Assembly: GCA_015485495.1 (NCBI GenBank)
Contig: WFTL01000109.1
Location: forward strand, 1-38,817
Direction of reading: 5' to 3'
Length of the DNA: 38,817 bases
From: Planctomycetaceae bacterium
GTDB taxonomy: Bacteria > Planctomycetota > Planctomycetia > Planctomycetales > Planctomycetaceae
In this document: in pieces, positions 24,121 to 34,006 of the stretch
How positions within the stretch are numbered: the first letter of the stretch is position 1
Layout of the letters: each line of letters starts with the position of its first letter
Position numbers and translations under genes: made by a program
Notes under the pieces: model-generated
The model's input: only the letters and a program-made list of their open reading frames with translations
Told to the model about the DNA's origin: nothing
Databases searched by the model: none

Positions 24121-25437
24121 TCAGGGATCTGCTGTCGGAGCGGTCTGTGTGGCCGGTTCCGTCTTCGGACCGGATGCGGGGGACGCCGGATTCAGGCGCC
24201 AGGGAGCGGCGGTCCGGGAATGGTCGTGTCCGTCGTACACGCCGAAATCGCTGAACAGAAATTTCTTGGCGATTCGGTAGTACCAGTTGCGTTCGGGGAT
24301 CTCCCGGCCCGGGTGATACTGCGACGTGCGCGGGACCATGGATTTCAGTTCGGCGTGCGCTGTCCGGCGGGCGGTGGAATCCCGTGCGCCATGACGGACC
24401 ACCAGTTCATGCAGCAGGTCGGGGCGTTCCAGCACAATGCAGCCACGAGTTGTTTCCTGCGCCAGACGACGGAAATCGGCCAGAAATTCGGACTGCGTGA
24501 ACCGTTCGAACAGGGGCCGATCATCATCGCCTGGATGAATGGATTCGGTGGAAAACTGAACGATCGGGCACGGTTCGATGTCCCCCCACGGGTTGATGTG
24601 GTGACTCATTCCGTTGGCCGCCGGGCACAGAGCCTGTCCGTCACCGTCGTAATAGGCATCGATGATGATGATGGGTTTGCGGGCCCGCATTTCCACGACG
24701 AATTCGCGGGCTCGCTGCTGCTGTTCCGGTGTGAGGCACAGTTCCGGACAGGCATCCGGTCCCATGGGACGATAGACATGGAACCAGGTGTACAGCACGC
24801 CCATCTCGATGAGCCGATCGATCCAGGATTCGGTGAGCAGATCATCGATATTGGTCCGGCACAGACTTGTGCACACCCCCGTCAGGACGCCGTGTTTCAG
24901 ACAGTTGCGGATTCCGTCCAGAGTTCGGTTGTACACGTCGGGGCGACCGCGCCGTTCGTCGCTGACGATTTCGTTGCCTTCCACACTGATCAGCGGGGTC
25001 ACATTGCCCAGCTCAAACAGCCGCCGCGCTTTTTCGTCCGTGATGAACTGTCCGTTGGTGAACACCTGGAAGTAGCAGTCGGGATGAGCGGCGAGGATAT
25101 CGAACAGTTCCGGATGCATGAACGGTTCGCCGCCGACCAGGCCGAAGAAACTGTTGCCGGCTGCTTTGGCTTCGCCGATGAGACGGTTCATGGCGGGCAG
25201 GTCGATGGTCTGCTGTTTGTGTCCCACGTCGACCCAGCATCCCTGGCACCGCAGGTTGCAGCTGTTGATGATGGAAATGTACAGGAACGGTGGAAAGAAC
25301 TGACCGCGTTTCATTCGCCGGCGGTGGCGCAGCACAGACAGGCTGCCCCGGACTCCCAGGTTCCAGAAAAGTTTCCACAGCAGGCGTTTGTTCGTTTCGA
25401 ACAGAACGCGCCGGGCCATCTGCAGCGTGTACTTCAT
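24121..25437 (-). CDS. Radical SAM protein with extra Cys motifs
   Basis: A 438-aa radical SAM enzyme of unknown substrate. Seen: a basic, amphipathic N-terminus of about 50 residues, then the CxxxCxxC cluster motif SCNLRCQGC (Cys60, Cys64, Cys67), GGEPF, a second glycine motif, and after the barrel further cysteines in ALCPAANG and INPWGDIEPCPI that look like a SPASM or twitch auxiliary cluster. A long tail rich in Arg, Thr and Pro follows. The pattern fits the MoaA/PqqE group broadly, but no precursor peptide or partner enzyme is adjacent. The start at 25437 has AGG 9 nt upstream and opens the coding-like sequence; longer readings are not supported. It shares its upstream region with the helicase gene. 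Confidence 0.8.
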   Translation of the reverse strand: MKYTLQMARRVLFETNKRLLWKLFWNLGVRGSLSVLRHRRRMKRGQFFPPFLYISIINSCNLRCQGCWVDVGHKQQTIDLPAMNRLIGEAKAAGNSFFGLVGGEPFMHPELFDILAAHPDCYFQVFTNGQFITDEKARRLFELGNVTPLISVEGNEIVSDERRGRPDVYNRTLDGIRNCLKHGVLTGVCTSLCRTNIDDLLTESWIDRLIEMGVLYTWFHVYRPMGPDACPELCLTPEQQQRAREFVVEMRARKPIIIIDAYYDGDGQALCPAANGMSHHINPWGDIEPCPIVQFSTESIHPGDDDRPLFERFTQSEFLADFRRLAQETTRGCIVLERPDLLHELVVRHGARDSTARRTAHAELKSMVPRTSQYHPGREIPERNWYYRIAKKFLFSDFGVYDGHDHSRTAAPWRLNPASPASGPKTEPATQTAPTADP

Positions 25438-26051
25438 GTTGCGAACCTGCCCGTGAGCGGTGAACGGAACCGACCCGGTGCCCGTGGAACGAACGGGCAC
25501 GGAAGGCGTGCACGACGGAGGCAGACGGATTTCCGACCGGAAAGGCTGCGGCAGGCAGCGGCCTGCCTGACGGCAGAATCCGTTCAAAAACGCCAGGAAA
25601 CCAGCGACTGTCCCCGGTTCCGTTCCGGTTTTTCAGAAAAAGTTGACCTGGACGGTCGGTTGAGCTAGACTCACTCCGTCTTTTGCAGCTCGGAACCGTA
25701 CTGAATATCGGAACACCTGCTGAACAGAGGCCTCTGCTGGTGGCCGGTGTTCGCCTGTTCCCGGTATCCGCATCGCGTGGTGCGTCCGGTTCCGCAGTCG
25801 TTCCTGCCGCTTTTCCGGGTGGCAGACGACCGGCAGGCTCCGCATTGTCCGTGTGCCTGGTTCAGCAGATTTCCGGCCTCGCCGCCGTTGTTGTTACGGC
25901 GGGATTCGACGGCCGACAGTTTTTCGCCCGATGTGGGGCGACCCGATTCCGTCCGGGCCGCGATTTTGCGAGAGCACCGGTCCTGCCGCCGTCCTGCGTT
26001 CAGGACGCCTCCCTGGTTTCGGATTCCTGAGAGACAAGAAGAGACAGCCAC
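25438..26051. other. 614-nt structured divergent intergenic region
   Basis: It lies between the radical SAM gene (-) and the helicase gene (+). It holds five clear inverted repeats: arms GTGCCCGT/ACGGGCAC (25478-25500), GGCAGGC/GCCTGCC (25550-25567), the palindrome CAGAGGCCTCTG (25725-25736), CCGCCGT/ACGGCGG (25882-25902) and CGTCCTG/CAGGACG around CGTT (25990-26007). A near-consensus plus-strand promoter sits at 25643-25671. The open frames crossing it have no recognisable product. The plus half is therefore a long helicase leader or a separate small RNA. Confidence 0.6.
25643..25671 (+). promoter_or_regulatory. Near-consensus sigma70 promoter
   Basis: TTGACC (25643-25648) is followed after exactly 17 nt by TAGACT (25666-25671). 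It is the best promoter match I found in the window. Transcription would begin near 25678, about 374 nt before the helicase start at 26052, giving an unusually long leader that contains three of the region's hairpins. Confidence 0.6.
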
Positions 26052-27248
26052 TTGCAGACAACGACCGACAAAAGTTTCCGTGATCTGGGCCTGGATTCCG
26101 GCACGCTGGCCGCCGTGCACCAGGCCGGTTACGAGACTCCCAGTCCGATTCAGGCGGAACTCATTCCCATTGCTCTTTCCGGACGGGACTGCATCGGTCA
26201 GGCCCGTACGGGAACCGGGAAGACGGCCGCCTTCATGCTGCCGTCCATGGAACGGATCGATCCGCGGCGGCCGGGAGTGCAGCTTCTGGTGCTGTGTCCC
26301 ACCCGAGAACTCAGCGAGCAGGTTTTTCACGAATCGAAGAAGCTCAGCAACAACCGGCTTCAGATCGGAATTGCCGTGGGCGGTCGTCCGATTCACAGTC
26401 AGATCCGGGCTCTGGAAAACGGTGTTCAGGCTGTGATCGGGACACCCGGCCGGGTGATCGACCTGCTCCGCCGAAAAGCTCTCGACCTGCGGGGGCTGCG
26501 CATCGTTGTGCTTGATGAAGCCGATCGCATGCTGGACATCGGATTTCGGCCGGACATCGAACGGATTCTGAAAGCCTGTCCGAAAAAGCGTCAGACGCTG
26601 CTGCTGTCAGCGACCATGCCGGAACCGGTGGAACGTCTGGCACGGCGGTATATGTCGGATCCGGAAATGGTCGACCTTTCTGAAGACAGCGTGGTGGTCG
26701 ACACCATCGAACAGTTCTATGTCACGGTGGACGAAGACCGGAAAGCGTCTTTGCTGCTGCGTGTGCTGGCCCAGGAGAAACCGTCTCAGGCCATCGTATT
26801 CACCCGCACGAAACGCGGGGCCGATCGCCTGTTCGAAAAGTTTTCGCGGCGGCTGAAATCCAGTCGCATCGCCGCCATCCACGGCGATCTGCCGCAGCGC
26901 AAACGGGATCGCGTCATCCGTGATCTGCGGGCCGGGAAACTGCGGCTGCTGATCGCCACCGATGTGGTGGGCCGCGGCATCGATATCAGCGGCATTTCCC
27001 ACATCATCAATTACGACATTCCCGAAGACTGCGACGACTACATCCACCGGGTGGGCCGCACCGGCCGGCTGTCGTCATCAGAAAACGGACGGGCCATCAC
27101 GTTCGTCACTCTGGCTCAGGGCAGCGAACTGACGAAGATCGAAATGCGGATCAATGCGGTGCTGCCCCGCTACCCGATTCAGAACTTCGAACCGTTCCGT
27201 CGGCCGGAACGTCCGAAGCGTCGTGTCCGGCGGTTCGGCATGGCCTGA
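26052..27248 (+). CDS. DEAD-box ATP-dependent RNA helicase
   Basis: An RNA-unwinding helicase of 398 aa, of the RhlE-like bacterial type, probably in ribosome assembly or RNA decay. Seen: Phe and Gln of the Q motif (TPSPIQ, Gln34), motif I ARTGTGKT (51-58), CPTREL (82-87), TPGR (131-134), DEAD (155-158), SAT (186-188), and the C-terminal RecA domain with [10 protein letters not shown] and HRVGRTGR. The C-terminus is a short basic tail ([14 protein letters not shown]), likely RNA-binding. The start must be the TTG at 26052, since later GTG or ATG codons would remove the Q motif region; the ribosome-binding site is weak. Its long structured leader suggests post-transcriptional control, as seen for cold-shock helicases elsewhere. 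Confidence 0.95.
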
Positions 27249-32286: not shown

Positions 32287-33087
32287 ATGCCCGCGACGCA
32301 TCGTCTGATACCCGGAAAACGGGTGCGTCTGTCCGAACTGTCGACCAGAGGCCGTGATTTCTGTCGGGACCGCGATGCGGCGGAAGAGGAATTTCAGAAA
32401 CTGCGGCAGGAATTCACGGAACTGCAGCCGGTTCTGTACGCGGAGGGGCGTCGAAAACTGCTCATTGTTCTCCAGGCGATCGATGCGGGGGGCAAAGACA
32501 GCACGATTCGCCGCATCTGTGAAGGCGTGAATCCGCAGGGCGTCCAGGTGACGTCGTTCAAACAGCCATCCACTCTGGAACGCCGTCACGATTTTCTGTG
32601 GCGCATTCACCGGGCGGTTCCGGCCGCGGGGATGATCGGAATCTTCAATCGTTCGCACTATGAAGACGTTCTGGTGGCCCGCGTGGACCGCATTGTACCG
32701 GAAGATGTGTGGCGGGCGCGCTACGAATTCATCAACCGGTTCGAAGAGTATCTGTGTGCCACGGGAACCACGATTCTGAAGTTCTTTCTTCATCTGTCGA
32801 AGGGCGAACAGAAAAAACGACTGCAGGATCGTCTGGATCGTCCGGACAAACACTGGAAATTCGATCCGGACGACCTGAAGAAGCGGGCTCAGTGGGACGA
32901 CTATCAGAAGGCGTTTCAGGACATGCTTCGGCACTGCACGACCCGGACCGCTCCGTGGTATGTCATTCCGGCCGATCAGAAATGGTACCGCAATGTGGCC
33001 ATTATGCGGGTCATCGTTCATGCGATGAAAGCCATGGATCTGCGGTATCCCCCTGCCGAAGATCTCAGCGGAATCGTGATTGAATGA
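32287..33087 (+). CDS. ppk2: Polyphosphate kinase 2 (PPK2 family)
   Basis: Transfers phosphate between polyphosphate and nucleotides, usually making GTP/ATP or ADP/ATP from lower phosphates. The 266-aa one-domain protein carries Walker A QAIDAGGKDSTIRR (63-76), the HDFLWRIHRA lid segment (101-110) and Walker B FNRSHYEDVL (120-129), with the KRLQDRLDRPDKHWKF block typical of PPK2. The pattern points to class I or III, and which nucleotide it prefers cannot be read here. Start ATG 32287 has GGAAGG 9 nt upstream. It is a single gene between the helical-repeat protein (147 nt) and the XdhC gene (52 nt). Confidence 0.92.
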   Translation: MPATHRLIPGKRVRLSELSTRGRDFCRDRDAAEEEFQKLRQEFTELQPVLYAEGRRKLLIVLQAIDAGGKDSTIRRICEGVNPQGVQVTSFKQPSTLERRHDFLWRIHRAVPAAGMIGIFNRSHYEDVLVARVDRIVPEDVWRARYEFINRFEEYLCATGTTILKFFLHLSKGEQKKRLQDRLDRPDKHWKFDPDDLKKRAQWDDYQKAFQDMLRHCTTRTAPWYVIPADQKWYRNVAIMRVIVHAMKAMDLRYPPAEDLSGIVIE

Positions 33088-33139
33088 AAACCGGTGCGCC
33101 GGCGACAGGCCGGTGCGTGTCCTTCCGGAAAGGCCGATC

Positions 33140-34006
33140 ATGTCATTCGATGTCGTGCAGTTCAGCCGGGTGCTCAGCGATGTGGTCCATCGCCGGTGTC
33201 CGTTCGCCATCGTGACACTCGTTGAAATCCGGGGCAGTGCCCCGCAGATTGTGGGGGCTCGGGCGATCATCACTTCGGACGGACTGGAAGCGGGGACCGT
33301 GGGCGGCGGGCGGATGGAGGCCGCCGCGATTCGCCATGCGCAGCAGTGCCTTGCGGATGCACAGCGCAGCGGCAGCGAACTGGTGACGTGGAATCTGCAG
33401 ACGGACATCGGGATGACCTGCGGCGGGGAAGTGCGTCTGCTGTTCGATTTCTGCGGGACCGCTGCGTGGCCTCTTGCTGTCTACGGAGCCGGCCACATCG
33501 CTCAGGCCCTGGTGCCTCTGCTGCTGCAGCTCCACTGCCAGGTCACCTGCATCGATTCCCGGGCGGACTGGCTGGAGCGGCTGCCGGATGATCCGAAACT
33601 GACGAAGATCCGTTCGGATGATCTGCCGTCGACAGTGTCGCAGCGGCCGCCGGGAACCTGGTTTCTGCTGATGACTCAGGGGCATGCCACCGATCTTCCG
33701 GTCCTCGCGGAAATTCTGCGATCCCGCGTGGCGCCCTATGTGGGAGTGATCGGGAGTCGGCAGAAGGCGAAGGTGCTTCGCCGCGATCTGCAGCAGCAGG
33801 GGATTCCGATGGAACGGATCGATGCGGTGTTCTGTCCGATGGGACTGGCTCTGGGCAACAACACGCCTCCGGAAATCGCCATCAGTGTGGCAGCGCAGCT
33901 TCTGCAGCGGCGCGATGAACGGGATCGATCACCGGCGGCCGCCGGATCGGGTCTGACAGCGAACACCGTTCCTGGAAAGCTTATGAAGAACGCGACAGTT
34001 CGGTGA
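33140..34006 (+). CDS. XdhC/CoxI-family protein
   Basis: A 288-aa protein of the XdhC family, which inserts sulfurated molybdenum cofactor into xanthine dehydrogenase-type enzymes. Seen: the N-terminal domain with RGSAPQIVGARAIIT and GTVGGGRMEAAAI, then a Rossmann-like domain with VYGAGHIAQAL, IDSRADWLERLP and VGVIGSRQKAKVLRRDL, and the final GNNTPPEIAISVAAQLL. The start at 33140 has AAAGG 8 nt upstream; an in-frame TTG at 33080 would add 20 unconserved residues. No molybdenum hydroxylase subunit is adjacent, so its client enzyme must lie elsewhere. Its end overlaps the convergent DUF1501 gene by 26 nt. Confidence 0.88.
   Translation: MSFDVVQFSRVLSDVVHRRCPFAIVTLVEIRGSAPQIVGARAIITSDGLEAGTVGGGRMEAAAIRHAQQCLADAQRSGSELVTWNLQTDIGMTCGGEVRLLFDFCGTAAWPLAVYGAGHIAQALVPLLLQLHCQVTCIDSRADWLERLPDDPKLTKIRSDDLPSTVSQRPPGTWFLLMTQGHATDLPVLAEILRSRVAPYVGVIGSRQKAKVLRRDLQQQGIPMERIDAVFCPMGLALGNNTPPEIAISVAAQLLQRRDERDRSPAAAGSGLTANTVPGKLMKNATVR

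Follow-up and report, generated by a model that had tools for sequence, protein, structure and literature searches.

The 614-nt intergenic gap between a radical SAM gene on the minus strand and a DEAD-box RNA helicase gene on the plus strand, located at positions 25438–26051 of the 38,817-nt stretch of planctomycete DNA analysed here (the window), probably holds a promoter and a long 5′ untranslated leader of the helicase gene, most likely tuning the output of that gene with the helicase itself as the feedback sensor. The region is best read as a lineage-specific structured 5′ leader of the helicase mRNA. According to this reading, a conserved housekeeping-type promoter would start transcription about 374 nt before the TTG start codon, a distance estimated from the position of the promoter, and the resulting leader is predicted to fold into several hairpins. 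The leader would most likely tune helicase output post-transcriptionally, by affecting how stable the mRNA is or how accessible its start codon is, and the helicase may act on its own folded leader as a feedback sensor, by analogy with rhlE of Caulobacter. The features of the locus are collected in Table 1.

Table 1. Features of the helicase locus, in the coordinates of the window.
Feature	Positions	Strand	Remarks
Radical SAM protein gene, divergent	24121–25437	−	438 aa; ATG at 25437
Inverted repeat, 8 bp	25478–25500		5′ of the promoter, not part of the predicted helicase transcript; not seen in the congener scan
Inverted repeat GGCAGGC/GCCTGCC	25550–25569		5′ of the promoter; no counterpart in the congener scan
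−35 element TTGACC	25643–25648	+	TTGAC-N17-TAnnnT recurs before the best-matching helicase in many relatives
−10 element TAGACT	25666–25671	+	CTAGACT identical in three genomes of the genus
Predicted 5′ leader of the helicase mRNA	25678–26051	+	374 nt; start estimated from the promoter; fold z −3.73
Imperfect hairpin near the leader 5′ end	25711–25752	+	10-nt arms, 90% complementary; no congener counterpart identified
Inverted repeat, 7 bp, in the leader	25803–25837	+	Perfect arms; congener repeats of unrelated sequence
Hairpin CCGCCGT-TGTTGTT-ACGGCGG in the leader	25882–25902	+	Pairing kept in both congeners; register ambiguous
Start-proximal hairpin CGTCCTG-CGTT-CAGGACG	25990–26007	+	Congener hairpins differ in sequence, position alike
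DEAD-box RNA helicase gene	26052–27248	+	398 aa; TTG start

Regarding the genes on either side, both the DEAD and the Helicase_C families of Pfam matched the protein encoded downstream of the gap, whose four best named matches, among the matches listed, were planctomycetes. The top NCBIfam model was CshA at 421 bits, below the model cut-off of 646, and the protein is therefore named only as a DEAD-box helicase. The radical SAM protein likewise remained below the cut-off for all 25 of the NCBIfam models shown (the best 25 of 38), including HpnH (36 bits, cut-off 225). TTG occupies the homologous start position in 16 of the 30 helicase loci of at least 70% identity, window included, and 10 of these 16 share the start context TTGCAG or TTGCAA; no clear Shine–Dalgarno sequence was recognized by eye before the TTG of the window. 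A relative of the radical SAM gene was situated within 1.5 kb upstream of the helicase gene in both congeners, i.e., the two other genomes of the same genus (G001 and G002), and in two of the three g47 loci (L021 and L134), whereas none was found near the helicase in those loci of g42, g6, and g53 that were examined. In genome G048, just 154 nt (L021, 1344–1497) lie between the two genes of this divergent pair, with the −10 element 45 nt before the TTG and the long leader absent. In none of the three genomes of the genus did a loose pattern search return a promoter directed at the radical SAM gene.

The promoter claimed from the window by a sequence-only reading of this DNA, TTGACC-N17-TAGACT pointing at the helicase, was present, and comparison with relatives strengthened the case for it considerably. 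The two hexamers (25643–25671, spacer of 17 nt) match the consensus at 9 of 12 positions, as a promoter of the sigma-70 type should, and constitute the single sigma-70-like site called in the segment 25000–26500 (shuffle mean 0.2); the exact pattern TTGAC-N17-TAnnnT occurs a single time in the 38.8-kb window, both strands considered. Footprinting covered the DNA upstream of 53 helicase matches, comprising 30 loci from a search of 99 genomes, the window's own locus among them, and 23 from a search of 170 genomes, with L148 omitted because its upstream DNA amounts to 46 nt; these relatives are best protein matches and putative orthologues, and the counts that follow exclude the window. Of the 28 relatives whose helicase is at least 70% identical, 23 carry the pattern in the 500 nt preceding the gene, as do 14 of the 23 relatives below 70%, so that a spacing of exactly 17 was found in 37 of the 51 relatives with at least 500 nt of upstream DNA, relatives that are not independent because many share a genus (g53, g42). 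Dinucleotide-shuffled upstream DNA contained on average 0.12 (close set) and 0.05 (distant set) matches per set, and the same half-sites at spacings other than 17 gave 0–3 matches. The relatives without the spacing-17 pattern are L022, L127, L135, L141, and L147 in the close set, together with nine more distant loci; a spacing of 18 was present instead in L022, L135, L141, L039, and L041, thereby including three of the five close misses. Within the genus, the eleven letters of TTGAC and TAGACT are identical in all three genomes, against 28% identical columns in the three-way alignment of the leaders, and no other promoter-like site was called in the gap of either congener. Such conservation across relatives provides strong evidence that the promoter is in use. 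Since the motif is conserved before the helicase in relatives, it is likely that the helicase mRNA carries a 5′ leader transcribed from this promoter. We found little in the literature on planctomycete start sites, and here the promoter was pinned down by comparison alone.

The length of the leader, measured from the −10 element, varied from 45 to 539 nt with a median of 151 nt among the 39 loci with the motif within 600 nt (window included), a few of whose motif matches may be due to chance; in the distant matches, the alignment was extended to place the start codon, and the lengths may err by some codons. Leaders of at least 300 nt were present in nine of these loci, and leaders of at least 374 nt in four (again counting the window). 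The three genomes of the genus have lengths of 380, 300, and 301 nt, the g42 loci 181–321 nt (motif in six of seven), g6 291 nt, the g53 loci 56–156 nt, and the g47 loci 45 and 405 nt (motif in two of three). Given this range, a long leader is not required; it appears to be common near this genome, yet not obligatory.

It has to be considered whether transcription starting at this promoter often stops within the leader, which would then be a free small RNA, as had been suggested for this region, or an attenuator. The conserved promoter and the stable hairpins would be compatible with such termination, as would the run of T at 25920–25924, some way 3′ of the hairpin 25882–25902, and the terminator-like sites on the helicase strand of the congener leaders, namely two overlapping sites in L017 (2886–2869 and 2878–2864) and one in L018 (2933–2916). 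However, no terminator-like site was called on the plus strand inside the leader of the window, and the congener sites are weak, with 5–6 pairs, and differ in place; no site was called in L018 at the place of those in L017 (2864–2886), and the one site of L018 over both strands together compares with a shuffle mean of 1.1. Runs of at least five T do not coincide either, being located at −132 from the start codon in the window and at −273, and at −276 and −219, in the congeners. Moreover, a promoter of this kind sits close to the helicase in those relatives whose leader is short, and no Rfam match reached the gathering score. Because the congener sites are weak and at different places, early termination is unlikely to be a conserved feature, and frequent termination within the leader seems to us very improbable; the free small RNA thus retained little support.

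A coding function of the gap was also evaluated. In the window, the open frame of the helicase reaches just 7 codons upstream of the TTG, and the gap therefore does not encode an N-terminal extension of that protein there. The leader does contain a 115-codon ORF (25683–26030, plus strand), which could be taken for a small protein or an upstream ORF regulating the helicase. Nevertheless, two ORFs tested over the leader had no Pfam or NCBIfam family match, and neither the 115-codon ORF nor an overlapping ORF on the minus strand had a tblastn match in the gaps of the congeners at E ≤ 10; moreover, many indels separate the leaders. The same two ORFs obtained five short, weak, and chance-like matches in L019 and L020 (best E 0.17). 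We regard a hidden small protein or regulatory upstream ORF as hardly credible.

The scan for inverted repeats (perfect arms of at least 7 nt, loops of 3–25 nt) bore out the claim of five clean repeats across the gap, three of which (25803, 25882, and 25990) lie 3′ of the promoter, within the predicted transcript. The gap holds six repeat pairs, two of them at one place, compared to a shuffle mean of 1.04; six were reached by one of 300 shuffles and by one of 192 background segments of 614 nt from the window, a segment that may overlap the region itself. In the congener gaps, three pairs were found in L017 (shuffle mean 1.07; 10 of 100 shuffles reach three) and four in L018 (shuffle mean 0.92; 0 of 100 reach four). 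Two of the repeats of the window resemble repeats of the congeners in position: the repeat at −249 from the start codon (25803–25837) is paralleled at −226 and −229, and the start-proximal hairpin at −62 (25990–26007) at −62 in L017 and −64 in L018. The stems are unrelated in both cases and homology is uncertain; for the start-proximal hairpin, only the position is claimed as alike because the congener stem is unrelated.

When the predicted leader was folded as a single sequence, none of 100 dinucleotide shuffles was as stable, and of 60 pieces of 374 nt drawn at random from the window (mean z −0.69, sd 1.22) one was as low, which places the leader in the tail of the window background without making it unique. 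A random piece at 32821–33194 (plus strand) folds at z −3.95, lower than the leader. Among the relatives, the leader of L019 had a fold z of −3.82 and that of L020 one of −0.41, the two congeners gave −1.3 and −1.2, and eight further leaders fell between −2.96 and +1.93, so that over the 13 leaders the values extend from −3.82 to +1.93 and unusual folding is not consistent. Stem-loops are therefore above chance in the leader of the window and uneven in those of the relatives.

The sequence of the gap itself is poorly conserved. When the 614 nt were searched against their own genome and against a set of 99 genomes, only short matches were obtained besides the window (best E 7.4e-4 in the set of 99), none of them at the gap of a congener among the matches listed, and BLAST between the window gap and the congener gaps returned only pieces of at most 17 nt. 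The congener gaps align to each other at 77%, compared to about 62% of aligned bases between the window and the congeners, where the alignment scores were 133 and 125, against means of 106 and 105 and maxima of 128 and 133 in 30 shuffles; the window sequence is thus at most slightly above the shuffled level. Poor conservation in relatives, which the sequence-only reading had named as an outcome that would speak against it, was largely what we observed at the level of sequence, the promoter being conserved all the same.

Searches for a known or shared RNA family agreed with this picture. Rfam 15, a check that had been proposed for the region, gave no match at the gathering score in the window or in 13 helicase loci of relatives; five matches below threshold (E 0.18–7.2) fell in the gap, and a single one of these within the leader. 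A covariance model built from the leaders of the two congeners (R1, 54 pairs) did not recover the leader of the window as a whole, its best match outside the training sequences being 18 nt on the hairpin 25882–25902 with E 0.96. Over 170 genomes of the family, under strict filters, R1 recovered the two training genomes and one 31-nt match in G153 (E 0.004), located on a contig other than that of the helicase match of this genome; the element was not recognized by R1 in more than one genus. The genus sample comprises three genomes, and the contig scan gave at least 80 loci, those listed having at most 61% identity. These comparisons do not support an RNA family that is both new and widespread, and the new structured RNA family envisaged earlier is left with a hint in one genus, the idea failing at the genus boundary on present data.

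These observations could also be accommodated by a long unconstrained untranslated spacer, in which the hairpins would arise from G+C-rich sequence and drift and selection would act on the promoter and the start region alone. The near-shuffled scores of the alignments between the window and its congeners, the failure of R1 on the whole leader together with the absence of anything convincing in other genera, the wide variation in leader length, and the uneven structure signals would all be expected of such a spacer. Against it stand the inverted repeats, which exceed those of shuffled sequence in the window and L018 and to a lesser degree in L017, the pairing kept in the hairpin 25882–25902, and the alignments of leaders in g1, g42, and g53_a, which lean to structure as their upstream controls do not. 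On balance we consider an unconstrained spacer rather unlikely. The last two lines of evidence are given below.

The hairpin 25882–25902 is the most conspicuous part of the leader in comparisons within the genus. The segment CGTTGTTGTTACGG at 25886–25899 corresponds to CGTCGTTGTTACGG in G002, at −166 and −145 from the start codon, respectively, and of all ungapped matches between these two leaders it scores highest, with a score reached by 2 of 60 shuffles; for the leader of G001, no ungapped match to the window was significant, the score being reached by 49 of 60 shuffles. As an exact match, CGTYGTTGTTACGG is present a single time in the genome of the window, a single time in G002, and not at all in G001; matches with one mismatch are no commoner than those of the reversed control (28 versus 30, three genomes together). 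When the seven stem pairs of the window were followed in G002, two showed two-sided changes and one a change from C-G to T-G, none being broken; in G001, six of the seven pairs were kept and one base of the last was missing, with a three-base gap in the loop placed by hand. The register is ambiguous due to a CGT repeat: MAFFT and the covariance model led to an alternative in which one arm is shifted by three bases, which pairs in all three sequences and likewise includes two pairs with two-sided changes. Because G001 and G002 share the stem, this amounts to one evolutionary comparison, and the chance that such changes would all leave standard pairs in the three genomes is 0.066–0.187, depending on the transition rate. 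The compensatory changes are hence no more than suggestive of conserved pairing, three genomes being too few for proof; the covariation sought for the region took the form of two compensatory pairs in one hairpin, a result that at this chance level is not statistically secure.

At the level of whole alignments, the z of the leaders against column-shuffled alignments was −2.55 for the congener pair, −2.08 for the three genomes of the genus, and −3.21 for the g42 trio, compared to −0.99 and −0.98 for two g53 sets and −0.2 for the part of the congener gaps upstream of the promoter. In windows of 120 columns, the mean z was −0.96 for the leaders, where 2 of 17 windows had a z of −2.5 or less, and −0.31 for the controls (upstream and coding), where 3 of 109 did, all three of them coding. 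Specifically, the mean values of the leaders in g1, g42, and g53_a were −1.14, −2.21, and −2.48, and those of the corresponding upstream controls 0.02, 0.21, and −0.13; two of the five groups, g53_c and g53_d, had no leader signal, and the congener pair's own 120-column windows reach only −1.82. Since no spacing-17 motif was recognized in L022, L135, and L141, the leader sets g53_b and g53_d were trimmed to arbitrary lengths. Twenty RNAalifold pairs with two-sided changes in the alignment of the three leaders were not counted as covariation, owing to its many gapped columns and broken pairs. Taken as a comparison of alignments, leader structure appears to be favoured in some genera, not in all. 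The leader sequence turns over fast, so that between genera the arrangement alone seems to be kept, i.e., a fixed promoter, a variable spacer that would be structured in some genera, and the start codon.

The preferred reading therefore remains that of a promoter and a structured leader of the helicase mRNA. A more far-reaching version would make the leader an undescribed feedback element of one planctomycete genus, in which the hairpin 25882–25902, through its UGUUGUU/CGUUGUU loop, contacts the helicase or another RNA-binding protein, the start-proximal hairpin acts as a switch, and the same logic has been rebuilt with unrelated sequences in neighbouring genera; we judge this version distinctly unlikely. 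As it stands, the region amounts to an ordinary leader in which one hairpin is open to testing, and it appears to be a local variant of a known arrangement. Of the earlier proposal of a regulatory 5′ leader, the promoter and the leader are supported by conservation, and regulation is made plausible by analogy with the systems discussed below.

The cold-induced DEAD-box helicase mRNA deaD/csdA of E. coli carries a very long structured 5′ UTR and is described as self-regulated; the leader of the window is comparable to it by analogy only. Passages on feedback on RNase J in H. pylori (PMC5874925) and on long leaders and cold in Acetobacterium (PMC6239172) carry no weight as evidence here. In Synechocystis, the DEAD-box helicase gene crhR responds to temperature and to the protein it encodes, and the half-life of its transcript does not depend on CrhR (PMC3485376). 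The relevant passages of that paper concern transcript and protein half-life and the term “UTR” is absent from its main text, and for this reason no leader mechanism is drawn from crhR.

The closest likeness is to rhlE of C. crescentus, where maximal expression requires a 186-nt leader with predicted stem-loops, fusions are expressed more strongly in the rhlE mutant, and transcriptional fusions are not induced at 10 °C (PMC5472812). Both genes encode a DEAD-box helicase preceded by a long leader with predicted stem-loops, which here would extend over about 374 nt between promoter and start codon, judging by the promoter. In contrast to rhlE, the leader of the window belongs to another phylum and another helicase subfamily and is about twice as long, and whereas reporter data exist for the Caulobacter gene, the present leader is known from its sequence. 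By this analogy, the leader is plausibly autoregulatory, as for rhlE, and feedback of that sort would be its most probable function, provided that it has any. If so, feedback through a long helicase leader would recur in another phylum, and would persist there while the sequence of the leader changes almost freely.
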